From: Bacteroidota bacterium
GTDB lineage: Bacteria > Bacteroidota > Bacteroidia > Chitinophagales > Chitinophagaceae
DNA length: 11,722 nt
Direction: 5' to 3'
NCBI GenBank assembly: GCA_025361325.1
Contig: JANYAL010000284.1
Coordinates: forward strand, 1 to 11,722
Positions 235-11,444 of this stretch are shown one piece after another; within the stretch, counting starts at the first letter, position 1; each line of letters opens with the position of its first letter. A program made the position numbers and the translations under genes. The notes beneath the pieces were generated by a model. That model worked only from the letters and a program-made list of their open reading frames with translations, had not been told where the DNA came from and ran no database searches.

Positions 235-594
235 ATGACAACACATGACATCGCACACAGCTTACACGAGTTGTGCAATCAAGGACATTTTGACGCTGCA
301 CAAAAAGAATTGTTTGCAGCTGATGCTACCAGTACCGAAATGGATATGATTACCGGTAACCTGGTGACTACTACAGGAGTTGAAGCCATTGAATCAAAGG
401 GCAAACAATTTCAAAGCATGATCGACGAAATGCACAGCGGACATGCCGGCGAGCCCAAAGTATTCGGCAATCACATTTTTATGGACCTGCACATCGATGC
501 CACCATGAAGGAAAGAGGCCGGGTTCAGATGGATGAGATGTGTCATTATGAGGTAAAGGACGGAAAGATCATCAGCGAGCAGTTCTATTTTTGA
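235..594 (+). CDS. SnoaL-like / NTF2-fold small protein
   Basis: A 119-residue soluble protein without signal peptide or membrane segment. Its pattern is that of the SnoaL-like NTF2 fold: an N-terminal helical part with a short stretch like 'LHELCNQGHFDAAQKELFAAD' shortened here to its first half, then a central Gly/Thr-rich turn near residues 41-52, a helix rich in Lys/Gln/Met, and a C-terminal beta-sheet finishing with a 'YEVKDGKIISEQFYF' strand pair, which is the usual end of SnoaL-like proteins (a strand, a 'DGKI' turn, a strand). Members of this fold bind small hydrophobic ligands or act as isomerases or cyclases, but no catalytic set can be named here. The ATG is preceded by an A/T-rich leader, common in Bacteroidota, and the gene stands alone with its own downstream hairpin. 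The substrate is unknown; its proximity to the phosphonate cluster may be accidental because the two are convergent. Confidence 0.8.
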   Translation: MTTHDIAHSLHELCNQGHFDAAQKELFAADATSTEMDMITGNLVTTTGVEAIESKGKQFQSMIDEMHSGHAGEPKVFGNHIFMDLHIDATMKERGRVQMDEMCHYEVKDGKIISEQFYF

Positions 595-732: not shown

Positions 733-1860
733 TCATAACCCCTCCACCACTTCTTCCATGTATCCAAAGGACATGGTCATTCCTGTGCCACCCAGTCCGT
801 TCACAATATGCACGCCCTGTTCCGGCGAATAATACAGTTCGGTGTCTCCATTGGTAAGTTTGGGATAGATGCCGTTCCAGGTTTCTGCTATATGCCATTC
901 GGGAAACCGGGCGATCTTCTTCAGATAGGCCAGTATAAGAGTATTGATCGCTTCCCGGTCGAAAGGATCATGCGTTAAACCGTATTCATGGGAATCACCT
1001 ATGGTGATCTGTCCGCTTTCATTCTGGCAGGCCATCACATGTATCCCATTGTCCGTATATGCCTTCCATTCATCCGTATACCTTTTCTTCAGTTTGTCCA
1101 GCGAAGCGGCTGCATTGAAACTGTTATAGTGTATCAGGGATAATCCACCGCAAAGTGCTGTTCCCATTCTCCAGTTATCCGGCTGGGGTGCAGTACGCAT
1201 CATCTGTAATTTGCATTTGGTAAGGGAGAAACGAGCAAACTCTTCAGGGTACAAGGTCTCAAAATCGGTGCCGCTGCAAATAAAGACCTGGTCTGCGTCA
1301 TAGGACTCATGGGTTCCGATGTATACACAGCGATCTGAGATATAGCTAACACATTTATTCCATAAGAATTCAACACCATATTTCGAGGTAAGATAACCAG
1401 GCAGGGTTTCTATAGCCTGAAGCGCGTTTATGATCATCTCATCCCTGCTGTATAATCCCCCGATAAGTCCTTTGGGTTCTGCAGCAGGACAAATGTGTGC
1501 TATTTCAGGAATGGTTAATAATGCAACCGGCCGATCGCGATGAAATGATTCATAGAGTTCTTTTATCACTTCCCATTCATCCTCTTCATGTGCCACATGA
1601 AGACTACCCACTTCCCCATACCAAAGATTAGCTTCATCGCAGATACCCTTCCAAATTCTTTTACTGCGCAATGCCCTTTCATACAAATGACCTGCAGGCT
1701 GACCCACAGGCCATATCATGCCGAAATTCCGTATGGATGCACCTATTGCCCTTCCATTGCGTTCTAGGACCTTAACGTTAAATCCCCGGATGGCGAGGGC
1801 TCTGGCCATAGCCAGACCGCTAATTCCTGCGCCTATAACGATGGCTGTACGTTTTTCCAT
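733..1860 (-). CDS. FAD-dependent oxidoreductase of phosphonate clusters (TIGR03364-like)
   Basis: A 375-residue DAO-family flavoenzyme. The N-terminal Rossmann motif is GAGISG at residues 10-15, with the ribose-binding acidic residue E33 at the end of the second strand (KVLERN). A family-like 'RNFGMIWPVGQP' block follows near residue 44. Near the C-terminus is 'NGLGGTGMTMSFGY', the second FAD-contacting segment of D-amino acid oxidase-like enzymes. It resembles the FAD oxidoreductases (TIGR03364) that recur beside phosphonatase-like hydrolases. Related flavoenzymes from such clusters oxidise 2-aminoethylphosphonate or its N-methyl form to phosphonoacetaldehyde, so the likely reaction is oxidative removal of the amine with O2 and H2O2 release; the exact substrate is inferred. 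It is the last gene of the operon. Its ATG lies 28 bases inside the end of the transporter gene, suggesting translational coupling. No signal peptide, so cytoplasmic. Confidence 0.85.
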   Translation of the reverse strand: MEKRTAIVIGAGISGLAMARALAIRGFNVKVLERNGRAIGASIRNFGMIWPVGQPAGHLYERALRSKRIWKGICDEANLWYGEVGSLHVAHEEDEWEVIKELYESFHRDRPVALLTIPEIAHICPAAEPKGLIGGLYSRDEMIINALQAIETLPGYLTSKYGVEFLWNKCVSYISDRCVYIGTHESYDADQVFICSGTDFETLYPEEFARFSLTKCKLQMMRTAPQPDNWRMGTALCGGLSLIHYNSFNAAASLDKLKKRYTDEWKAYTDNGIHVMACQNESGQITIGDSHEYGLTHDPFDREAINTLILAYLKKIARFPEWHIAETWNGIYPKLTNGDTELYYSPEQGVHIVNGLGGTGMTMSFGYMEEVVEGL

Positions 1861-3118
1861 GGTATGATCGCCTTTTTGTATTTAAAGAAGAACCAGATTG
1901 CTGAGAAAAGCGTACCAGCCATTCCGATCAAAGAAAGGATCAGAACACTTTGAGAATAGAAACTAACCCAATGCAGTTTTATTCTGAATATTTCCTTTCC
2001 GAAAAGTACGGTTATACTTCCCAGGTAACCAAATGAATCAGCGAGATACATCAGGAATCCGACATTTCCTTTGAGTCCGAATGCCGCGATCATACGTTCG
2101 AACAACAAGCAGTTGAATGGTATATAGCCGAGGTAAAGTCCTAAGCCCACCATCAACATCCAGTTTATGGGATGAAGGCTATGCATCGTAAACAGATAGG
2201 TAGAAACGCCAGTGATCAGGAACCCGGTGAGTATCAGGATATGCGCGGTGAGAAAAGTGGCAAAATTATTCTTGATGAATACAAGTGAAGCTATAATGAC
2301 CAGTACAATCAGTGTGATGGGTACCTCCGTCTGTGTAAATATGGATGCCTGGTTTGCAAAACCCAGTTCATTCCAGAGATCAGCTGCAAAGTTATCGCGT
2401 ATATCCCTGAATATAGTAAGAGGGTATAAATGATGATAAGTACGACAAGACCAGGCAAAAAATTTAAAACCAATTGTTTACGTTTTTCTTTAGTCATGGG
2501 TACCCGTTCGTTCCGGGAGAGGATATCTGCCGAAGAGGGCAGGGGTATTTTTTCGAGGAAGAAGACACATATCATCAATGGAATGATAAAGATAAGTCCT
2601 GTAATGAAGGGCCCCCAGAATTCAGTCACTTCCCAGTTGATCACAAGGTATTTTGACACTGACTTTACCACACCGGAGGAAAAGATAAAACTAACGGCCA
2701 GCACCGCCCCAATGAAATCGGTCGTTCGCCGCCCTTCGATATAAGAAAATATGATGCCCCATATCATTCCTAGGGGAAAACCGTTGATGAATAGGAACAA
2801 AATATTATAGGGTGCCGGCACAATGGCAAAGAAGAACAAAGACAACCATGCGATCATCATGAGCAGTACGATAACCTTCCAGCGTTCGAAACGTTTCAAT
2901 TCTCCTATGAATTTTATACCATAGAACTTACTAAGGGTATACCCCAGCACCTGGCTGATGACCAGGCATACTTTATAGTTGATGCCCAGGAAGGTCATTC
3001 CGTCAAAAGTGCCAACAGTAAAAGGTTTTCGAAATGCATATACCATGGCATAGGTGAGAAAGACCACGATGGCAGCATAAACTGCTACCCCGAATCGGTT
3101 ATTCGGCTTTATAAACAT
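1833..3118 (-). pseudogene. Frameshifted 12-TM MFS transporter (DUF5690-like), candidate phosphonate importer
   Basis: Two open frames together make one transporter. The 5' frame begins at ATG 3118, just 10 nt after the hydrolase stop. It carries about seven membrane helices and an early 'YAFRKPF' motif, like the Y-x-x-R-K-x-F signature of organophosphate:phosphate antiporters such as GlpT and UhpT and typical of DUF5690 proteins. Around 2405-2430 the frame is lost: the first frame reads a nonsense tail to a stop at 2309. The -1 frame continues without a stop as LTIFRDIRDNFAADLWNEL and then five more membrane helices to the stop at 1833. Adding one base near 2422 restores a protein of about 428 residues with 12 helices, the normal size. 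The defect is either a real null mutation or a sequencing/assembly error; no slippery heptamer with a downstream structure was seen. A TTG start at 3139 is possible but less likely. Position between catabolic genes suggests aminophosphonate uptake at the inner membrane. Confidence 0.85.
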
Positions 3119-3128
3119 GCTTTCAGGA

Positions 3129-3839
3129 TTATTTGGCAAAGGAGGCTGAATTTAAAATGAACAGCAATTCTGACAGGTCATCAATGACCGCATCCGGGTA
3201 GTAGCTTTCCAATTGGCTGTTGGTATATACTCCTGTACTAACCCCTACTACCAGACCACAACCAGCCATCCTTCCTTCCAGTGTATCCACTTCTGTGTCG
3301 CCAATTTTGGCGACAGTGGAAGTATCCAGGACACCCAGTTTATGCATGATGGCCTGAATCATATCGGGAGCAGGCCTGCCTTTTTCCACTTCATCAGAGG
3401 AGATAACATGATCCACCAGTCCTGCCTCCCGCCAATTCAATCGCTCCATAATGATATTGGTGATGCTTTTCGGGAATCCCGTATTCAGTGCTACTTTAGC
3501 ACCTTCCTTATGCAAATGTGAAAATACTATTTCTGCGTAGGCCAGAGGTTCCAGGTGAGGGTCATTTTGATATAAGCTAGCCATCCTTTCCAGGAACAGG
3601 TCATGGATGCTTTTTACTAGGCCATTATTTGCGTTTATTTCCCCTGGGTAGCATCTTTCCAGCAACATGCGAATGGCCAACTGCTTATTGTATCCCCTGA
3701 CACGGTTCACTTCTTTCAGCTCTACGGTATAGCCGAACTTTTTCAGAGCAAACAAAAAGGATTGGGTAATATTTCCATTGTCCTTTACCGTTGTACCGGA
3801 AATGTCAAATACCGCCAACTGGAAATGGGAACCATCCAT
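3129..3839 (-). CDS. Phosphonatase-like HAD hydrolase (PhnX-like, TIGR03351-like)
   Basis: A 236-residue HAD-superfamily enzyme closest in pattern to phosphonoacetaldehyde hydrolase. With the ATG at 3839, the nucleophile is D12 in DISGTT, matching PhnX D12 in DWAGTT; the usual second Asp is replaced by Ser14 (Ala in PhnX). In the cap, RGYNK places K52 where PhnX has its Schiff-base lysine (MGLLK, K53). The loop NTG at 119-121 is motif II. R155 in 'KGRPAPDM' replaces the usual HAD lysine, as in PhnX (R160). D181 and D185 in GDTEVD are the Mg2+ ligands. Predicted reaction: hydrolysis of phosphonoacetaldehyde, or a close relative, to phosphate and an aldehyde, in the cytoplasm. The open frame extends to a TTG at 3866 inside the upstream gene, but ATG 3839 gives the family-typical N-terminus, 10 nt after the PhnZ-like stop. 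The exact substrate is inferred. Confidence 0.85.
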   Translation of the reverse strand: MDGSHFQLAVFDISGTTVKDNGNITQSFLFALKKFGYTVELKEVNRVRGYNKQLAIRMLLERCYPGEINANNGLVKSIHDLFLERMASLYQNDPHLEPLAYAEIVFSHLHKEGAKVALNTGFPKSITNIIMERLNWREAGLVDHVISSDEVEKGRPAPDMIQAIMHKLGVLDTSTVAKIGDTEVDTLEGRMAGCGLVVGVSTGVYTNSQLESYYPDAVIDDLSELLFILNSASFAK

Positions 3840-3849
3840 AACATAAGTT

Positions 3850-4446
3850 TTAGAAGTTAACAGCAACAGCTACCTGGCTTTCCAGGTGTTTGACCAGCAA
3901 CTGATGAAAATAGTCGAGCGACAATTCGAGAGGTCTGTGCATTTCCTTTGCCAATTCGTCCCAGCGCCGCATTTCAATAAAATCCTCAAAATAAGGGTCG
4001 TGTTCAAACAGAATGGCCTCATCGGGATTCATCACTCCACCCTGGTATTCCAGCGTCTTTTTACTGGCATCCGAGAGTTCTTCAAAATATTGGGGATATT
4101 TAAAGGTAAGGTAACGTTTGGCGGAAACATGGTTCTCCACGAGTTGCACTATATGTTCCGAGAAACCGCGTTTACGAAGAAATTGAGCCCCTATTTTTTC
4201 ATGGTTCATCACACCGGAATCTCCCATAGTGGATACTGTATAAGCGGCAGAACAGATATGACCTATATCGTGCAGGAATGCCGCCAATATCATCTCCTCG
4301 GGAAAACCTCCTTGCCTGGCCAGGTTAGCCGCCTGTACCATATGGTCAAGCTGTGTAACTTTTTCTCCTGAATATTCATTGCTGCCATATTTTTTATAAA
4401 GGCTGATGATATCATCGGCAATGGATTGTATTTTAGCTGAAGCCAT
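3850..4446 (-). CDS. phnZ: PhnZ-like HD-domain mixed-valent di-iron oxygenase
   Basis: A 198-residue HD-domain protein resembling PhnZ (TIGR03276-like, phosphonate-operon HDIG protein). Metal ligands visible are H35, H59-D60 (LHDIGH), H82 (NHEKIGA), H106 (ENHVSAKRYL) and D163 (RRWDE). These are in the same order and nearly the same spacing as in PhnZ. The pair Y25 and E28 in 'EYSGEKVTQLDH' matches the Tyr24/Glu27 switch that guards the iron site in PhnZ, which ordinary phosphohydrolase HD proteins lack. The conserved 'LSDASKKTLEYQGGVM' block (residues 124-139) is also PhnZ-like. PhnZ uses two irons and O2 to cleave (R)-1-hydroxy-2-aminoethylphosphonate to glycine and phosphate. The partner dioxygenase PhnY that makes this substrate is not in the window. 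First gene of the tight four-gene block; ATG start at 4446. The symbol is given for homology; the substrate is not proven. Confidence 0.85.
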   Translation of the reverse strand: MASAKIQSIADDIISLYKKYGSNEYSGEKVTQLDHMVQAANLARQGGFPEEMILAAFLHDIGHICSAAYTVSTMGDSGVMNHEKIGAQFLRKRGFSEHIVQLVENHVSAKRYLTFKYPQYFEELSDASKKTLEYQGGVMNPDEAILFEHDPYFEDFIEMRRWDELAKEMHRPLELSLDYFHQLLVKHLESQVAVAVNF

Positions 4447-4552
4447 AAATGATTGATATTGTTCAGTTATTTATTAATGCTGATTTCAAAATAAAAGAAA
4501 GTCATCCTTTCCATTTCGGTGATACTTCCTTGTTACCGGCAATCAAAAGTTA

Positions 4553-4560
4553 CAAAACTA
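4553..4560 (-). promoter_or_regulatory. Possible -7 promoter element for the phnZ-like block
   Basis: The minus strand reads TAGTTTTG, a full match to the Bacteroidota -7 consensus TAnnTTTG, in the 149-nt gap between the PhnO-like stop and the PhnZ-like start, about 106 nt upstream of that ATG. A TTG-type -33 box at the normal distance was not found (the nearest TTG is only about 10 nt upstream), so this is weak. A 6-bp inverted repeat GTTACA/TGTAAC (4549-4554, 4566-4571) brackets it. This could be an operator, a feeble terminator of phnO (TTTT follows on the minus strand), or chance. Confidence 0.25.
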
Positions 4561-4595
4561 TATTATGTAACAATGAAGTAATGATTATGCTTGTT

Positions 4596-5045
4596 TTAAA
4601 TGATCTTCGTGAACTTTGTATGTGTAAGAGTGAACCCGCATTTAAAATAGAATTCCGCTATGCCTTTTCGGATATTATTCGCTGTCACCTCCAGCGAAAG
4701 GCAATCCCTCTTCTCCAGTTCCCGGTGAAGTGAATGCAGCAAATGACTGGCTGCGCCTCTGGAACGGTAATGCCGGTCCACAAAAAGTTCCTGTATCTCA
4801 TACACCATTCCGCCATGATGCAGAAGCAACTGTCCGTGGCAACTGATATAACCGATGATTGCATTCCCACTATCCAAAGCCACCAGGTAGATGGTATTGT
4901 CAGCACAGATATTCTTCCTGTAGGTAATAAGAAATTGATCGAAGTCAAAAGACCTGTTCTCCAGTTCACATACAAACCTGTAAATGGTCAATCCATCACC
5001 GGGCCTGGCGTGCCGTGTTGTGATCTGCTGCTCTTTTTGCTGCAT
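4596..5045 (-). CDS. phnO: PhnO-like aminoalkylphosphonate N-acetyltransferase (GNAT)
   Basis: A 149-residue GNAT acetyltransferase that follows E. coli PhnO (144 residues) along its length. 'FVCELENRSFD' at 24-34 parallels PhnO ICELKQAEFD, 'EIQELFV' at 83-89 parallels EIQELVV, and the end 'HTKFTKII' parallels HFRFTKAL. The acetyl-CoA pyrophosphate loop is RSRGAA at 94-99 (R-x-x-G-x-A). PhnO acetylates the amino group of aminoalkylphosphonates from acetyl-CoA, for utilisation or detoxification. The open frame runs up to a TTG at 5090, but ATG 5045 yields the family-length protein. It is the first gene of the minus-strand phosphonate cluster, 149 nt ahead of the PhnZ-like gene, so it may be co-transcribed or separately expressed. 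It diverges from the small exported-protein gene at 5212; I found no convincing promoter in that 166-nt divergent region. Confidence 0.82.
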   Translation of the reverse strand: MQQKEQQITTRHARPGDGLTIYRFVCELENRSFDFDQFLITYRKNICADNTIYLVALDSGNAIIGYISCHGQLLLHHGGMVYEIQELFVDRHYRSRGAASHLLHSLHRELEKRDCLSLEVTANNIRKGIAEFYFKCGFTLTHTKFTKII

Positions 5046-5211
5046 ACGGGATCTTTGATATCTCACTCCATACCTGAATGTGATGGCCAAAGTGAAATGG
5101 TATCACTAGATATGCAATGTTTTGATTATAAAGGTTAACAAATCATCAAATTAAGTATCTAACCAAAGTCTTGTTAATTATTCTTTTATTTTGAAAAATA
5201 TTCCACCTGTT

Positions 5212-5580
5212 ATGAGAAAGATCCTGTTTGTACTTTTCGCTATCTTGAGTTACTTCCTATGCTTTTCGCAGCAAGACAGTCTTCAAAAAAAGCGTCCCAA
5301 GCTTGTACTTTTTGAAAAAGTAGCCATCATCGGAATGGATTTTCACAGCAGAGTATGGCTTGGGTTCGGAGGGCCTCAATTATTATTCAAAATCAACCAG
5401 GACCTTAAGATTGGCCCAGCCTATTACCCTACCCTTTGGTGGGATTATGCCACCGGAGAATGGGATACCAAACTGGGGGTAGGCGTCCGGGCAGATATTA
5501 AACGAGTGGTCATAGGTTTCAATGCTTTCAGGGTCAGGGAAACCTGGGTAGGTTCTATCGGTTGTGGTTACAAATTTTAA
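5212..5580 (+). CDS. Small exported protein of unknown function
   Basis: A 122-residue protein whose family I do not recognise. From the ATG at 5212 it begins with a clear Sec signal peptide (MRKILFVLFAILSYFLCFSQ, cleavage probably after the Ser or Gln near residue 20). The mature part of about 100 residues is rich in aromatics and glycine, alternates in strand-like fashion (FGGPQLLFKI, GPAYYPTLWWDY, KLGVGVRADI, VVIGFNAF) and ends in Phe, as outer-membrane beta-barrel strands often do. It could be a very small barrel or a periplasmic beta protein. The Cys at 17 is not in a convincing lipobox. A TTG at 5191 in frame is a less likely start. It diverges from phnO and converges on the phosphatase gene with only 8 nt between stops. 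Confidence 0.65.
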   Translation: MRKILFVLFAILSYFLCFSQQDSLQKKRPKLVLFEKVAIIGMDFHSRVWLGFGGPQLLFKINQDLKIGPAYYPTLWWDYATGEWDTKLGVGVRADIKRVVIGFNAFRVRETWVGSIGCGYKF

Positions 5581-5588
5581 CTCCATTT

Positions 5589-6413
5589 TTAAGCTTCATA
5601 GAGCAGTCTGAGCTTTTTTATCTTCTTTTTATTGAGGCCCATTACTTTTTTCAGGTATCTACTGATGTTCCCGTACCGGGTGCTAATTGTTTGCATAGTG
5701 GCCTGCAGATAAGAGGCTTTTACACCCATCACATCATTGACCACTTGTTCAGGTATCTTCAGGCTCTCCACCATCATCTTTACCCGCGATGCATTACCTG
5801 CCCTGATGTAATTGTTGCTGGCCAGGTAATCTTGCATGATGAAGGCTGTATCCACATCCAGCGCATACAGGAGCAAAGCAGCAAAAATACCGGTCCTGTC
5901 CTTTCCGGCAGTACAATGAAACAATATAGCACTGTCGCCGGATTCATTTAACAGCTGGTTAAATATAGGTTTGTAACGGTCTTTGAAAGGCTCTATCCCT
6001 GTATAATAGGTAAGCATCAGGCTGTCGCCGCTTTTGGCTTTCTGCATGGCTTTCATGAAAGCAGACATGTCATTGCCCACCTGTTCACTTCCGGCTGGCA
6101 GGGATATGCGTTGAGCTGTTGCAGGAAGGCGGTCGGGTGCTTTACTTACTTCCATTGGTCCCCTGAAATCGAAAACCCTGTTTATGGAAAGTGTATTCAA
6201 CCTGGCAAGATCCTGTTCTGTGAGATTACTAATCTCCGCAGAACGGTATATTTTCCCCCATTTAATATGCTTCCCGTCCTTTGCAGGGTAACCGCCAAGA
6301 TCTCTGAAATTGATGGAACCCTGTAATTTTATTTCCCGGTTAATACTATCTACAGGCTGTGCTAAGGCCATGACAGGTACAAGAAAAAAGACAACTAAAG
6401 AGGGCCTTTTCAT
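5589..6413 (-). CDS. Exported tyrosine/dual-specificity-type protein phosphatase (Y_phosphatase3)
   Basis: A 274-residue cysteine-dependent phosphatase. A Sec signal peptide occupies residues 1-18 (cleavage ALA-Q). Hallmarks of the Y_phosphatase3 family follow in order: NFRDLGGY at 35-42, GKIYRSAE at 53-60, the 'FDFRGPMEV' block near 81-89 (D-x-R-x-x-x-E type), and the catalytic P-loop HCTAGKDRTG at 166-175 with nucleophile C167 and phosphate-binding R173. Family members remove phosphate from phosphotyrosine and, in some bacteria, phosphoinositides. With a signal peptide it should act in the periplasm or at the cell surface, so it may scavenge phosphate from organic phosphates rather than control a kinase. 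The start lies 28 nt beyond the SusCD terminator, so read-through could supply some expression; no separate promoter was recognised. The C-terminus is Lys-rich (residues about 256-268). Confidence 0.88.
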   Translation of the reverse strand: MKRPSLVVFFLVPVMALAQPVDSINREIKLQGSINFRDLGGYPAKDGKHIKWGKIYRSAEISNLTEQDLARLNTLSINRVFDFRGPMEVSKAPDRLPATAQRISLPAGSEQVGNDMSAFMKAMQKAKSGDSLMLTYYTGIEPFKDRYKPIFNQLLNESGDSAILFHCTAGKDRTGIFAALLLYALDVDTAFIMQDYLASNNYIRAGNASRVKMMVESLKIPEQVVNDVMGVKASYLQATMQTISTRYGNISRYLKKVMGLNKKKIKKLRLLYEA

Positions 6414-6482: not shown

Positions 6483-8108
6483 CTATTTTGTTAACCAGGT
6501 ATCTTTTGTTAAATCATCTGTTCCACTGAATTGTGATTGAACAGCAGCTAAATAGTTAGTTGCATTATAATCCTTTTCAGACTGTGGATACTGCCAGCGC
6601 CTGGGAATCAGGTTATTGGTGGTACCGATGCCTACACCACCTTGTGAAAAGGCAGGAACGCCTGTCCGGCGCCAGTTATAATATGCTTCCCAACCTGAAT
6701 TATTGAACATGGCCACATATTTTTGTTGTAATATCTGGTTGAGGCCGGTTGCATTGTCTCCGGCATACACTACGTTGGGATTGCTCAGGAATTGGGGAAT
6801 ATTAACAGTCACAGTTCCCTGGGAGGCGCCTGTCAGATCACCGATAGTCAAAACCTGATTGTTGCTGAGGCCATAGATACCCATGGAAGCGTTTATGCCT
6901 GCCAGGTACCAGGAGGCTGAACTACCGGTGGCCCAGCCACGGTTGATACCTTCCGCTATGTTAAAACACATTTCTGGATACCCCATAAAAATATAAGGTT
7001 CGCAATTTGCGCCGGATGCTGAACTATAATAGCGGTTATAGTTAGCGAAAGAATAGAAACCACTTGGAGCGTTAGTGAACAACACTGCCTGGGAGGTATT
7101 CATATCTGCGCCAACATAAGCCGTAAAATCACTGATCATTTTACCATTACCACCGCTGGCAATCGATTTAATCTGGATTGGTGCCGGAGTGGATGTGATA
7201 AAGGTCCGGGGATCCTGGTTAGCCGTGGTTAAATCCAGGTAGGTCTTACCCATATTAGCGTAATTATTATACGGGGTATTACCGGTACGCTGAATGGGAT
7301 ATTGATTGGTGGCTGCATTATACACATACTTAACATTATCGGCATTGCTGGTCATGATCGGATAGGTGGTTGGGTTATTGACAATGGAAGCAAACTGGGC
7401 GGGTATGTTCAGGTCTGCGTTGTCAACAGCCCGCTTACTCAGGCTTATCAATACCCGTAAACGGAAGGTATTGATCATTTTCTGCCATTGCAGGTTGGTA
7501 AGACCAAAGATATCACCGGCTACATCGAATTTGTTGTTGGCCGTTGCAGGAGAAATCTTTGTATTAAAGATGGCATTGGCATCATCCAGTAACTTCAGCG
7601 AATTCTTGTACACATCGTGTTGTGTATCATATTTAGGTGTCAGGTTTGCGGGATTACCTGCTTCGGCCATTGGTATATCTCCAACACGTTGTGCCAGCCA
7701 GATGGCAGAATACGCGCGGATGAATTTTGAAGCACCAAAATATATATTAGTGGTATTACCAAACTGCTTTTGGGCCTGCTCTTCCATCTTGACCGCATAT
7801 TTCAGCAGGTCATAGGTATGATCTGAATTTGACCAGTTATAGAAATTACTGCCCCAGTAATAGGAGTAATTAGATACATAATACTGGTTGAGGCGGTGTG
7901 TATTTCCCCAGGGCTCCTCACTGTTACCAATACCTGCACTCCGGATAATGGTGGAGGTAATATGATTCAGCAACAGCGATACGGGGATTGTGCTGGCCTC
8001 ATTGGCAATATTTGGGTTGTTCTCCAGGTTGTCTTTTTTACAGCCCGAATTGGAGGCTATTAAAACAGCGGACAGAAGCCCTGCTGTTATGAATGATCTT
8101 ATTTTCAT
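6483..8108 (-). CDS. SusD-like nutrient-binding lipoprotein (SusD/RagB superfamily)
   Basis: A 541-residue outer-membrane lipoprotein. The signal peptide ends in a lipobox-like SNSGC with lipidated C23, followed by KKDN. The mature start 'NLENNPNIANEASTIPVSLLL' shortened to its NPN core is typical of the SusD-like_2 subgroup, as is the C-terminal 'IPRRWQYPQSEKDYNATNY' pattern and the preceding 'YVAMFNNSGWEAYYNWRRTG' segment. The N-terminal half is helical with TPR-like spacing (residues about 60-250). SusD proteins cap the SusC channel and hand over ligands. The gene starts 21 nt after the SusC stop, so the two are one operon. No sugar-degrading enzyme accompanies the pair, so the ligand (glycan, peptide or another compound) cannot be told. 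Length is normal for the family. Confidence 0.92.
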   Translation of the reverse strand: MKIRSFITAGLLSAVLIASNSGCKKDNLENNPNIANEASTIPVSLLLNHITSTIIRSAGIGNSEEPWGNTHRLNQYYVSNYSYYWGSNFYNWSNSDHTYDLLKYAVKMEEQAQKQFGNTTNIYFGASKFIRAYSAIWLAQRVGDIPMAEAGNPANLTPKYDTQHDVYKNSLKLLDDANAIFNTKISPATANNKFDVAGDIFGLTNLQWQKMINTFRLRVLISLSKRAVDNADLNIPAQFASIVNNPTTYPIMTSNADNVKYVYNAATNQYPIQRTGNTPYNNYANMGKTYLDLTTANQDPRTFITSTPAPIQIKSIASGGNGKMISDFTAYVGADMNTSQAVLFTNAPSGFYSFANYNRYYSSASGANCEPYIFMGYPEMCFNIAEGINRGWATGSSASWYLAGINASMGIYGLSNNQVLTIGDLTGASQGTVTVNIPQFLSNPNVVYAGDNATGLNQILQQKYVAMFNNSGWEAYYNWRRTGVPAFSQGGVGIGTTNNLIPRRWQYPQSEKDYNATNYLAAVQSQFSGTDDLTKDTWLTK

Positions 8109-8129: not shown

Positions 8130-11100
8130 TTAGAATCCAAGATTGATATTGAAACCAAAACGACGTGCGGTTACACTGGATAGTCCCTGGTTACCATTAA
8201 CACCGCTCAATGACCTGTCGGAAGAGTTGTAACCAGCGGCAAACTGGTCTGCATCCAGGTCTTTCCTTTTCGCAAAATAGAGCAGGTTTCTTCCGACCAG
8301 TGAGAACACAGCATTCTTAATGAATGTCTTTTTAAGGAATTTCTCAGGAAGGGTATACCCCAGGATAATTTCACGCAGTTTCACGAATGAACGGTCGATC
8401 ATATAATATTCATCAAAATTTCCTCCCAATCCGCTCGAGAGGTAACTCTGCACAGTAACTGCTTTTGTATTGGGTGCAAAGGTCAACGCGCTCAGGTTGG
8501 TGATTTGTCCGCCAGCAAAAGTGGGCGTGCCCCCCGTGATTACAACGCCATTACCCACGTAAGCGGGCGTAGCGGTAACAGTACCGTTGTTGGTGCTCTG
8601 CCATTCCTTTAAACGGGCAATACCAAAATCACCGCTTGCACTTTCAATAGCTGTACCACCGTTCATAGACTGGTAATAAACACGGTCATAGATCTTTCCA
8701 CCGATCCTTCCGTCAAACTGGAAACTGAAACTGAAATTATGATAGGAGAATTTGTTGCTAACCCCGAAACTATAATCCGGATTGGCATATCCCAATAAAC
8801 CCCGGTTCGAGATATCCGAAGGTGCCTGTAGAGGGAAGCCAGCGCTGGTATAGACCACATTGCCGGAAGCGTCCCGGACGAATGTAGTTCCATATATAGC
8901 ATCTACGCGATCACCTACTTTATACTGGTGGCCATTCTGAGTAAGTACTGTTTCAGTGCCATAAATCGCATTCAGTGTTTGTTTAAATGTTGATACGTTG
9001 AACAATACATCCCAGGAAAGACCATTTGTATTTTTCAAGGGTGATCCGCTCAGCGAAAATTCAACACCCTTGGTCAGAACCGTAATTCCATTCACGATCT
9101 GGTCGGTATAGCTGGTAGATGCCGGAACAGGAAGCTTAAAAAGCTGAGGGCCATTCAGGTTGGAGAAATAAGTGAAATCAAAGCCTAGCCTGTTCTTCAA
9201 AAATTTCATCTCCAGGCCTGCTTCATATGATTTATTGTCAGCAGGTACAGCATTTGGGTTTGATATTGTTGAAGAGTAGTTAACTGAAGAACTACCATTA
9301 TAATAAGAGGCACTGGAGTATCCAACTGAGTTGTTGTAATTGGGGCCGTCATATGTGGTATACAGTTCGTTTCCATAACCCAACAGGCCGCCATTAAGGT
9401 CAACACCGTTCAGCAACATGAATGCAGATGGTGCAGTAGGTGAGGTAAAGGCTTCTTTAACATCGGCATAGGAAACACGAGCTTTGGCAAAAGATATGAA
9501 GCTTGGGAATTTAAGATAGTCGGTCAGCACCGAACTGACCGCAACAGATGGATAGTAAAAGGTATTGTTTTTCTTTGACAGCGTTGACAGGTTATCCACC
9601 CTTCCGGTGTGATTGATGTTGAAGAATTTCTTGTACCCGAAATCAACAGAATAGAATCCACTGTACACTTGCATCTCTGAACCCCAAGTGTATGACAGTA
9701 CCGGGTTGATGGAGTTTGCGAAATTGTACAGGTTAGGTATTGCTAGCGCCTTGGTAGTGGTAAAGCTGGACGTATATTTGAATTCGCGGTTACTTGCCCC
9801 AAGAAGAGCGGTTACACTGAAATCATCGAATTTCTTATCGTAGTTCACAATGAGGTCGGTGTTGTATTCACGCAGTGTGCGGCGGTCTTCGCGGTAATCA
9901 CCGTTCCATCCAAAGAAATACCAGGGTGTGTAGGTATTCAGGTTGATGGAAGGTGGTGCTTTTTCCGTCCGCAACTGGTCCCAGGTTGTCACCTGTGTAC
10001 GCAGGTTTACATTAATATTGTTATTGATCTTATAGCTGGCTTTTACATATCCGTAGATATCGGTCTTGTCATGCGAGCGCAACCATTTTTTGGCCATGAA
10101 CCAGGCGCTGTTCTCCCTTCCATATTCGGGTGCATATTGTACCAGGTCCTGTACACCCTGTGGGCCTTTATATGTATCCTTGATATCATTGATATTGTAA
10201 TCGGATGAGCCATATACTTTGAACATATACATATAACTGTTCGGACCATAATTCACATCAGGGATATTGGGCGAATGCTGCAGGTTCAGGTTGATATTGC
10301 TTTCTACCCTTAATTTCGGGGTTATGTTGTATCCCGCGTTAAGGTTCAGGTTATCCCCGTTAAGTTTGGTATTGGGGAACATACCCTTTTGGTACAGATG
10401 AGAATAAGAGATCCTGATATCATAATTGGAACCCCCTGCAGATACTGCGATATTATCTGTGGTAATGAAACCAGTCTCTATGAAATTCTTGAAATTATCC
10501 TTTCCGCGGGCCGTGTACGGGGTTGGAGTCCTCACACCTGCAACCGGATCCCAGGGACTGTCGTATTGTTTTACCAGTTGACCCTCAAAACGGGGGCCCC
10601 ATTCGGGTAAACGTTGCTTATTATCATACAGCACATCACCATAAGAATATTTATAAGTGGTGCCGCGTCCATATTCATACTGGCTCTTGGGATCTACCAG
10701 CAGGCCATTTTCGAAAGTATTGCTGCTGTTGAATTCAACGCTCCAGCCTTTCTTATCCTTAGTACCCCTTTTGGTGGTGATGATGATAGCGCCCTTGGCA
10801 CCCCTTGAACCGTACAATGCGGCAGCATTAGGGCCTTTCAGTACTGAATAGGATTCAATATCATCGGGGCTGATGTTCCAGGTATCAGAGTTCACAGGCA
10901 CACCATCCACAACAAACAATACATCGGTATTGCCCCTAAGCACAATCTGTGGGCGGCCCAGCATCTCAGCATTGGAGCCAACAGAAAGGCCGGATATTTT
11001 ACCTGCCAGTGAATTCACCGGGTTGGCATCACGGGCTTTGGTCAGCTCTGATCCTTTTATTTCCTGTATAGTGTACCCCAGTCTTTTGGCTTCTTTCCGG

Positions 11101-11444
11101 ATACCATACGCTGTTACCACTACATCAGTCAGTTGGGTAGCATCTTCAACCAGTTCTATGATCACGGTATCGTTCGCCCCCACTTTCTTTTCATCGCTCT
11201 TAAAACCCAGCGATGTTACGGAAAGAATCGCATCTTCATTCCTGACTGAAATGGAAAAATTACCAGTTTCATCGGTAAGGGTTACAGTATTGGTACCTTT
11301 AACTTTAACAACGGCGCCGGCAATACCAACTCCGGATTTCGTGACAACCTTACCGGTGATCTTTTTTGTCTGTGCAAAACCGCAAAGGCTCAGCAGGAGG
11401 AATGACATCAGAATTAATGTCTTAACACCAAATTTAAATTTCAT
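8130..11444 (-). CDS. SusC/RagA-family TonB-dependent outer-membrane receptor
   Basis: A 1104-residue receptor, normal length. Signal peptide at residues 1-25 (cleavage near CGFAQ). Residues about 28-105 form the carboxypeptidase-regulatory-like beta-sandwich (ITGKVV... TDETGNFSISV... VTSLGFKS), followed by the TonB-box-like stretch 'LTDVVVTAYG'. The plug domain covers roughly 115-225 and includes the SusC/RagA signature 'FVVDGVPVN' and 'ESYSVLKGPNAAALYGSRGAKGAI'. The rest is a 22-strand-type barrel rich in Asn, Tyr and Gly, ending with FGFNINLGF, with terminal Phe. It imports a ligand across the outer membrane with TonB energy, together with the SusD partner encoded just downstream. No anti-sigma/FecR-type regulator gene is visible in the 278 nt upstream, and no N-terminal signalling domain is present in the protein, so control by ECF sigma factor is not indicated. 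The substrate is unknown. Confidence 0.95.
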   Translation of the reverse strand: MKFKFGVKTLILMSFLLLSLCGFAQTKKITGKVVTKSGVGIAGAVVKVKGTNTVTLTDETGNFSISVRNEDAILSVTSLGFKSDEKKVGANDTVIIELVEDATQLTDVVVTAYGIRKEAKRLGYTIQEIKGSELTKARDANPVNSLAGKISGLSVGSNAEMLGRPQIVLRGNTDVLFVVDGVPVNSDTWNISPDDIESYSVLKGPNAAALYGSRGAKGAIIITTKRGTKDKKGWSVEFNSSNTFENGLLVDPKSQYEYGRGTTYKYSYGDVLYDNKQRLPEWGPRFEGQLVKQYDSPWDPVAGVRTPTPYTARGKDNFKNFIETGFITTDNIAVSAGGSNYDIRISYSHLYQKGMFPNTKLNGDNLNLNAGYNITPKLRVESNINLNLQHSPNIPDVNYGPNSYMYMFKVYGSSDYNINDIKDTYKGPQGVQDLVQYAPEYGRENSAWFMAKKWLRSHDKTDIYGYVKASYKINNNINVNLRTQVTTWDQLRTEKAPPSINLNTYTPWYFFGWNGDYREDRRTLREYNTDLIVNYDKKFDDFSVTALLGASNREFKYTSSFTTTKALAIPNLYNFANSINPVLSYTWGSEMQVYSGFYSVDFGYKKFFNINHTGRVDNLSTLSKKNNTFYYPSVAVSSVLTDYLKFPSFISFAKARVSYADVKEAFTSPTAPSAFMLLNGVDLNGGLLGYGNELYTTYDGPNYNNSVGYSSASYYNGSSSVNYSSTISNPNAVPADNKSYEAGLEMKFLKNRLGFDFTYFSNLNGPQLFKLPVPASTSYTDQIVNGITVLTKGVEFSLSGSPLKNTNGLSWDVLFNVSTFKQTLNAIYGTETVLTQNGHQYKVGDRVDAIYGTTFVRDASGNVVYTSAGFPLQAPSDISNRGLLGYANPDYSFGVSNKFSYHNFSFSFQFDGRIGGKIYDRVYYQSMNGGTAIESASGDFGIARLKEWQSTNNGTVTATPAYVGNGVVITGGTPTFAGGQITNLSALTFAPNTKAVTVQSYLSSGLGGNFDEYYMIDRSFVKLREIILGYTLPEKFLKKTFIKNAVFSLVGRNLLYFAKRKDLDADQFAAGYNSSDRSLSGVNGNQGLSSVTARRFGFNINLGF

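Follow-up and report, generated by a model that had tools for sequence, protein, structure and literature searches.

Contig JANYAL010000284.1 of a Chitinophagaceae bacterium (phylum Bacteroidota, assembly GCA_025361325.1), analysed here over its whole length of 11,722 nucleotides (the window), probably carries a phosphonate utilisation locus in which a SusC/SusD pair and a permease of family DUF5690 would provide import, and in which a flavin adenine dinucleotide (FAD)-dependent oxidase with a HAD hydrolase, and an HD-domain oxygenase, would cleave carbon-phosphorus (C-P) bonds. These genes are transcribed on the minus strand in the order SusC, SusD, a PF13350 phosphatase, a GNAT acetyltransferase, HD, HAD, DUF5690 (in two frames) and FAD, with a small open reading frame (ORF) of the opposite strand between the phosphatase and the GNAT gene. 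A preliminary description had read the five genes at positions 733 to 5045 as an aminophosphonate catabolic operon without PhnW, PhnY* or PhnCDE in view. Its coordinates and gene order are correct, the cluster is real, and the catabolism it proposed is well supported by a conserved cluster in which three enzymes and a carrier are relatives of named families. However, it missed SusD (6483-8108) and SusC (8130-11444), which lie upstream on the same strand. This SusC/SusD importer, tied to the cassette and outside the coordinates then considered, is the most telling part of the locus.

We infer every substrate and every transport step from family kinship, active-site residues and gene linkage, all documented below. 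In the proposed scheme, passage through the outer membrane would be the task of the SusC/SusD complex, with aminophosphonates or bulkier compounds that contain them as cargo. In many relatives the locus also encodes phosphoesterases, probably exported, which would release the head group, and DUF5690, a major facilitator superfamily (MFS) carrier with a possible resemblance to organophosphate:phosphate antiporters (OPA), would take it into the cytoplasm. The FAD oxidase would convert N-methyl-2-aminoethylphosphonate (N-methyl-AEP) and 2-aminoethylphosphonate (AEP) into phosphonoacetaldehyde in place of the transaminase PhnW, and the HAD hydrolase would split phosphonoacetaldehyde into acetaldehyde and phosphate via a lysine Schiff base. 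In parallel, the HD diiron oxygenase would turn (R)-1-hydroxy-2-aminoethylphosphonate ((R)-HAEP) into glycine and phosphate.

Recurrence of the gene set across Bacteroidota

The neighbourhood survey showed conservation of the cluster among related genomes and its recurrence across Bacteroidota. It drew on three samples: a phylum draw of 296 Bacteroidota genomes, the window's included; a family sample of 147 genomes, 38 of which (again counting the window's) carry the HD gene, with loci taken from 20 of these 38, mostly the closest, plus G150, G126 and G253; and named loci, the best 80 of 228 relatives (60 from Bacteroidota and 20 from Pseudomonas), with full flanks (>16 kb) in 38 of the 60. 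Some named loci and sampled genomes represent the same genome (e.g., L056/L030 and L073/L217). The labels SusC, SusD, C7, c13 and regulator denote clusters or profiles built here, a few members of which were scanned.

In the phylum draw, a clear HD gene was present in 12 genomes, TIGR03364 exceeded its cut-off in 22, TIGR03351 matched at E 1e-25 in 22, and DUF5690 exceeded its cut-off in 29; pairwise co-occurrence of these families gave p values between 1.2e-24 and 2.6e-13 without correction for kinship. DUF5690 accompanied all 19 genomes with both FAD and HAD and all 12 with HD. Eleven of the latter also had FAD and HAD, not always in one place: G099 and G190 have their HD locus and its SusCD pair apart from FAD, HAD and DUF5690. 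HD is an optional part, because it is absent from 8 of the 19 FAD and HAD genomes. FAD was found without HAD in G119, G215 and G258, and HAD without FAD above the cut-off in G014 (a canonical PhnX), G179 and G223, where FAD scored 278.8 bits, just under the cut-off. The 20 family loci contained DUF5690 and FAD throughout, HAD in 17 and an alkaline-phosphatase-type enzyme (C7) in 16, and in 18 of them (the exceptions being L218 and L221) SusC, SusD, HD, DUF5690 and FAD stood together on one strand. Among the 38 full-flank Bacteroidota loci, SusD occurred in 28, FAD in 30, and HAD and DUF5690 in 31 each. Cultured environmental relatives that possess the complete cassette include Mucilaginibacter lappiensis (L063), Pollutibacter soli (L057) and Ginsengibacter hankyongi (L073).

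The exchange of parts between loci links the gene set to curated phosphonate genes. The sole HD genome without FAD and HAD, G126 (L034), encodes PhnA (496.0 bits, cut-off 407.55), PhnY (665.1, cut-off 635.65) and PhnW (485.1, cut-off 400.8); HD and DUF5690 flank these genes and an FAD enzyme of another kind, SusCD and the phosphoesterase are kept, and no TIGR03351 gene is present. DUF5690 clusters with PhnW and PhnX in G014 (L198), with PhnW and PbfA in G119 (L191), and with PhnW, FAD, HAD and PbfA in G223 (L184), while G202 combines it with SusCD, PbfA, FAD and HAD. In G258, the FAD gene adjoins PhnA (496.0 bits against 407.55) and PhnY (632.6, just under 635.65), with PhnW, PbfA and an OPA-type carrier also present. 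Enzymes making phosphonoacetaldehyde adjoin the TIGR03351 HAD in L184 and L181. PhnA was ruled out among the alkaline-phosphatase-type genes of these two loci (at most 25 bits against 407.55), and the HAD is therefore the sole C-P hydrolase recognised there among the genes tested. Among 22 cassette genomes, only 3 have a PhnW above its cut-off, always within a DUF5690 cluster (G014 and G258, outside the 22, also have it), and no gene of the window genome reaches it (best 30.9 bits). The FAD oxidase therefore likely replaces PhnW in most cassette genomes.

HD and PbfA were never found in one locus (0 of 12 HD loci and 0 of 7 PbfA loci, p 0.005) in 25 genomes assembled by hand, namely the 22 with TIGR03364 above its cut-off and G223, G126 and G014. 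Both enzymes use (R)-HAEP, and joint cases numbered 0 in the phnWX and phnWAY clusters of PMC8154272. The same paper traces the first isolation of (R)-HAEP to complex polysaccharides of a soil amoeba, an origin that fits a locus with SusCD and phosphoesterases. No gene of PF05721, the family sought as PhnY* partner, was found at E<=1e-5 within 100 kb of HD on its contig in any of the 12 genomes, and for this reason the HD substrate is probably imported. The single PF05721 gene of the window genome lies on a different contig; the window's own contig measures only 11.7 kb.

Enzymes and their active sites

Scores were compared with the curated NCBIfam cut-offs of 285.1 bits for TIGR03364, 214.6 for TIGR03276, 218.9 for TIGR03351, 220 for TIGR01422 and 142 for NF007530, the first three being models of the hypoth_equivalog type. 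The FAD-dependent amine oxidase (733-1860, minus strand), of PbfD/HpnW type, passed TIGR03364 with 399.3 bits. We propose oxidation of AEP or N-methyl-AEP to phosphonoacetaldehyde as its predicted activity, by analogy with PbfD1 of A. baumannii, which is annotated as TIGR03364 and oxidises N-methyl-AEP, and with PbfD2, whose efficiency on AEP is four-fold lower than on N-methyl-AEP and which is argued to replace PhnW (PMC10590968).

The PhnZ-like and PhnX-like readings of the HD gene (3850-4446) and the HAD gene (3129-3866), both on the minus strand, hold as kinship with intact active sites; by cut-off the two proteins are best termed relatives of TIGR03276 and TIGR03351, not members. The HD protein scored 202.3 bits with TIGR03276, ahead of TmpB (144.8) and the hydroxymethylphosphonate-type PhnZ1 (117.2), and matched the PhnZ structure 4n71 in the PDB at E 8.9e-44; the TIGR03276 cut-off is itself reached by 5 of the 12 clear HD members of the phylum draw. 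PhnZ residues H34, H58, D59, H80, H104 and D161, which we take to be the diiron ligands, correspond to H35, H59, D60, H82, H106 and D163 in the window and are each invariant in 112 of 112 aligned HDs. Furthermore, Tyr24, Glu27, Lys108, Ser126 and Arg158 of PhnZ are unchanged in all 112 and His62 in 110. A look through one published study turned up no residues that tell PhnZ from methylphosphonate-type enzymes. The conversion of (R)-HAEP to glycine and phosphate is a proposed function.

The HAD protein, a proposed phosphonoacetaldehyde hydrolase, scored 166.0 bits with TIGR03351 and 89.0 with the canonical phosphonatase model TIGR01422, below both cut-offs, and matched phosphonoacetaldehyde hydrolase in the PDB. 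The TIGR03351 cut-off is reached in 8 of the 22 phylum genomes with a match, and in the window genome only through a second copy elsewhere (L204:1870-2544 on contig C174, 224.3 bits). The contig of this copy is 4.8 kb long, and no other phosphonate gene was recognised on it. Aligned to PhnX, the window HAD keeps D21, G58, K61, T129 and D194. All 87 HADs, a canonical PhnX among them, retain Asp12, Gly50 and Lys53 of PhnX, with Asp12 and Lys53 matched by D21 and K61 in the window, and His56 is replaced by alanine in 81. These residue counts include duplicates and cover HAD ORFs of more than 200 residues. Asp12 is presumably the nucleophile and Lys53 the Schiff-base lysine. HAD phosphatases are not known to require such a lysine, and its conservation favours an aldehyde, for example phosphonoacetaldehyde, over a phosphate ester as the likely substrate.

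The SusC/SusD pair and the putative DUF5690 carrier

The SusC-like TonB-dependent transporter (8130-11444, minus strand) matched PF07715 and PF13715, and the SusD-like lipoprotein, the lid of the outer-membrane importer (6483-8108, minus strand), matched PF12771 with 172 bits. SusD was found in 20 of 20 family loci and in 0 of 40 arbitrary 16.5 kb stretches from ten cassette genomes; the profile was built from cassette SusDs, and the comparison consequently tests that subfamily. SusC was present in 18 of the 20, the stretch ending there in the other two, and its profile matched 8 of the 40 arbitrary stretches. Eleven HD loci of the phylum draw included SusD in 8 cases and SusC in 10. We also searched the window SusD against 13 chosen genomes, the window's among them (nine other cassette genomes were left aside), obtaining 1 to 12 matches per genome. 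In 11 of the 12 other genomes, from several families, the best match lay at an HD or FAD/DUF5690 locus, with a chance probability of about 2e-5 calculated over the eight genomes that had at least two matches; the match in G182 was weak (80 bits, the next 66). The exception was G253, in which a SusD 63% identical to the window's stands with SusC and no adjoining cassette gene (L207, G253:C8:266525-268117).

A TonB-dependent receptor (L180:5941-8817; PF00593 with 126 bits, PF07715) lies directly before DUF5690 in a locus that has no SusCD. Similar receptors without SusD, weakly SusC-like, stand at or near DUF5690 in L182 (11050-13908) and L185 (6574-9513). Such receptors are perhaps alternative outer-membrane importers.

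The transporter of the preliminary description, recognised there by an OPA motif, belongs to the DUF5690 family (PF18943), but its gene as assembled is split in two frames. The N-terminal piece (2309-3139, minus strand) covers PF18943 positions 1-203 at 2417-3025 (303 bits), and the C-terminal piece (1833-2423, minus strand; listed ORF 1833-2186, frame open to about 2423) covers positions 202-380 at 1887-2423. The two frames scored 304.5 and 126.1 bits with this model, against a gathering score of 25. The break, at about 2417-2423, may be an assembly error or mark a decaying gene. An intact relative was predicted with a mean predicted local distance difference test score (pLDDT) of 89.2 and an MFS carrier fold; its first match by sequence profile, Foldseek and VIA-align 2 was SLC37A4, a glucose-6-phosphate exchanger, with other MFS carriers close. 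No NCBIfam model matched DUF5690, and when its profile was compared with that of a single OPA carrier encoded in a related cassette, no match emerged. We regard DUF5690 as a putative aminophosphonate carrier, above all because it clusters with several known routes that make or use phosphonoacetaldehyde. No mention of DUF5690 or PF18943 was found in the literature, subscription papers lying mostly outside the search. The AEP permease AepP (PMC8316502), reported also from one member of the Bacteroidetes, Kriegella aquimaris, is likewise an MFS carrier (GlpT-like, OPA); DUF5690 is a separate family by NCBIfam and by profile comparison. GlpT/PgtP-like OPA carriers also occur in FAD cassettes of genomes without DUF5690 (L193:10451-11788 and L192:118-1446).

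The GNAT acetyltransferase (4596-5090, minus strand) is a putative locus member. Its earlier reading as PhnO was rejected, as it scored 70.4 bits with NF007530 against 142 and is not conserved: no homologue was found at E<=1e-3 in 114 other loci scanned (L178-L204 outside the scan). The GNAT fold family alone is a safe assignment; some 16 relatives carry a PhnO or aminoalkylphosphonate label, all from a single source and as a label only. The 28-nt overlap cited earlier as part of the tight spacing lies between the second DUF5690 piece and FAD; a gap of 149 nt separates GNAT from HD. Upstream, a small ORF of the ORF list (5191-5580, plus strand) divides the enzyme block from the SusCD-phosphatase block. 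The PF13350 phosphatase (5589-6413, minus strand; 226 bits, an apparent signal peptide by eye) occupies the site where relatives have phosphoesterases and has no homologue in the 114 other loci scanned. A SnoaL-like protein (235-594, plus strand; PF20409, 110 bits) is convergent with the FAD gene, and no link to the locus was seen. RNA families, tRNAs and tandem repeats were sought in the window and none was found. The window is one whole contig of a genome of 2.6 Mb in 417 contigs (88% complete), whose closest HD relatives bearing organism names are Ferruginibacter and Chitinophagaceae.

Among the neighbours in relatives are a beta-propeller phosphoesterase, a phosphocholine-specific phospholipase C, a metallophosphoesterase, PF01663-type hydrolases and an XRE-cupin regulator. 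The phospholipase C adjoins the cassette at L055:782-3331 (829 bits against a cut-off of 580, one protein scanned), and its cluster occurs in 10 of the 60 named Bacteroidota loci, mostly Mucilaginibacter. The regulator (L036:5752-6369 and others, one protein scanned) has its cluster in 26 of the 60, with none in the window. A PDB profile search with phosphoesterase C7 returned nothing at E 0.01. In Pseudomonas loci such as L086:6805-8546, FAD adjoins HD near an apparent LysR regulator and an ATP-binding cassette (ABC) transporter ATPase, with no such HAD in view.

Competing explanations and known systems

The enzymes could form a phosphonate operon whose small substrates enter by porins, with the SusC/SusD pair an unrelated neighbour, an ordinary importer of glycans. 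SusCD pairs are numerous in Bacteroidota; moreover, the opposite-strand ORF parts the SusCD block of the window from the enzymes, SusD is missing from 10 of the 38 full-flank named loci, and the cassette of G253 is without SusCD. We nevertheless consider such a coincidence unlikely, since the cassette-subfamily SusD occurs at all 20 family loci and in none of the 40 arbitrary stretches, and since 11 of 12 genomes, from several families, have their best SusD match within a phosphonate locus. The opposite-strand ORF, the loci without SusD and the case of G253 also weigh against our own reading, as do several other points. Both HAD and HD of the window fall under their curated cut-offs, and the frame of its DUF5690 is broken. 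Six DUF5690 genomes (G080, G115, G065, G275, G122 and G283, PhnW not searched there) lack PbfA and any FAD or HAD of these families, so DUF5690 may not be a uniform family. HD and PbfA are not exclusive at the level of whole genomes, coexisting in 3 of 12 HD genomes (p 0.11). G302, 99% complete, has FAD, HD, DUF5690 and SusCD and no TIGR03351-type hydrolase at E 1e-12; two further HAD-less cassettes have a HAD at a distance of about 10 kb (G312) or on a separate contig (G413). Finally, Pseudomonas loci pair FAD with HD without a HAD, PhnX elsewhere in those genomes lying outside the search.

The G302 and Pseudomonas cases also bear on the idea that FAD and HD act in series, FAD making the alpha-hydroxy substrate of HD from a hydroxylated or N-methylated precursor and HAD serving a third compound. 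A TIGR03351-type HAD is present in 0 of 20 Pseudomonas loci and FAD in 13, FAD adjoins HD in the 11 maps showing both, and HpnW has been raised as a possible substrate source for PhnHD (PMC11203657). However, 8 of 19 FAD and HAD genomes lack HD, HD also sits with PhnWYA, 3 of the 38 full-flank HD loci have neither FAD, HAD, DUF5690 nor SusD, and the characterised PbfD enzymes yield phosphonoacetaldehyde (PMC10590968), so that a serial arrangement appears quite improbable. Still harder to accept is a role in the use of phosphoesters or of another amine, with the phosphonate names as inherited annotation. Phosphoesterases are indeed abundant in these loci, the phospholipase C among them, and the three enzyme models are hypoth_equivalogs; yet linkage to curated PhnW, PhnX, PhnY, PhnA and PbfA above cut-offs, together with a conserved Schiff-base lysine that HAD phosphatases are not known to need, makes this very improbable.

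The nearest published systems to our proposed phosphonate locus are those of PMC11203657 and PMC8115612. The phnX-hpnW-phnHD clusters of Achromobacter likewise combine a phosphonatase and a TIGR03276 HD oxygenase with a TIGR03364 FAD enzyme that takes the place of PhnW, but they have canonical PhnX, the transporter phnSTU and LysR (PMC11203657), whereas here we find the TIGR03351 HAD, DUF5690, SusCD and, in many relatives, the XRE-cupin regulator. The PbfD and phnX-pbfD clusters share oxidative deamination to phosphonoacetaldehyde without PhnW, and PbfD homologues were noted in the Fibrobacteres-Chlorobi-Bacteroidetes (FCB) group; the main text of that paper contains neither 'Bacteroid' nor 'TIGR03351', and it is not among the papers joining phosphonate, SusC and SusD (PMC10590968). 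The enzyme set, which the preliminary description called unusual, had consequently already been published in the form of FAD, HD and phosphonatase without PhnW. PusCD of Flavobacterium is also a SusCD-type pair near phosphonate genes, induced by phosphate depletion; in contrast to the one SusD subfamily that tracks the cassette here, PusD is polyphyletic, and the available text names no such enzyme set or carrier family (PMC8115612). Literature on SusC/SusD or TonB with phosphonate, on PusCD and on Chitinophagaceae PhnZ or phosphonatase, judged mostly from titles and the beginnings of abstracts, offered no description of the locus. Overall, the enzymes are of known kinds, and the gene set and its transporters are little described.

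A bolder reading, which we advance tentatively and do not hold to be the probable one, is that of a polysaccharide-utilisation-like locus for bound aminophosphonates, in which phosphoesterases at the surface and in the periplasm would release AEP, N-methyl-AEP and (R)-HAEP from the phosphonolipids or phosphonoglycans that carry them, import would fall to a specialised SusCD lineage, and DUF5690 would be a new phylum-wide family of aminophosphonate permeases. The locus offers testable functions for DUF5690, for the TIGR03351 hydrolase and for one SusCD lineage. Given how few cassette genomes have PhnW above its cut-off, surveys limited to PhnW, canonical PhnX or PhnCDE would overlook such loci in Bacteroidota.

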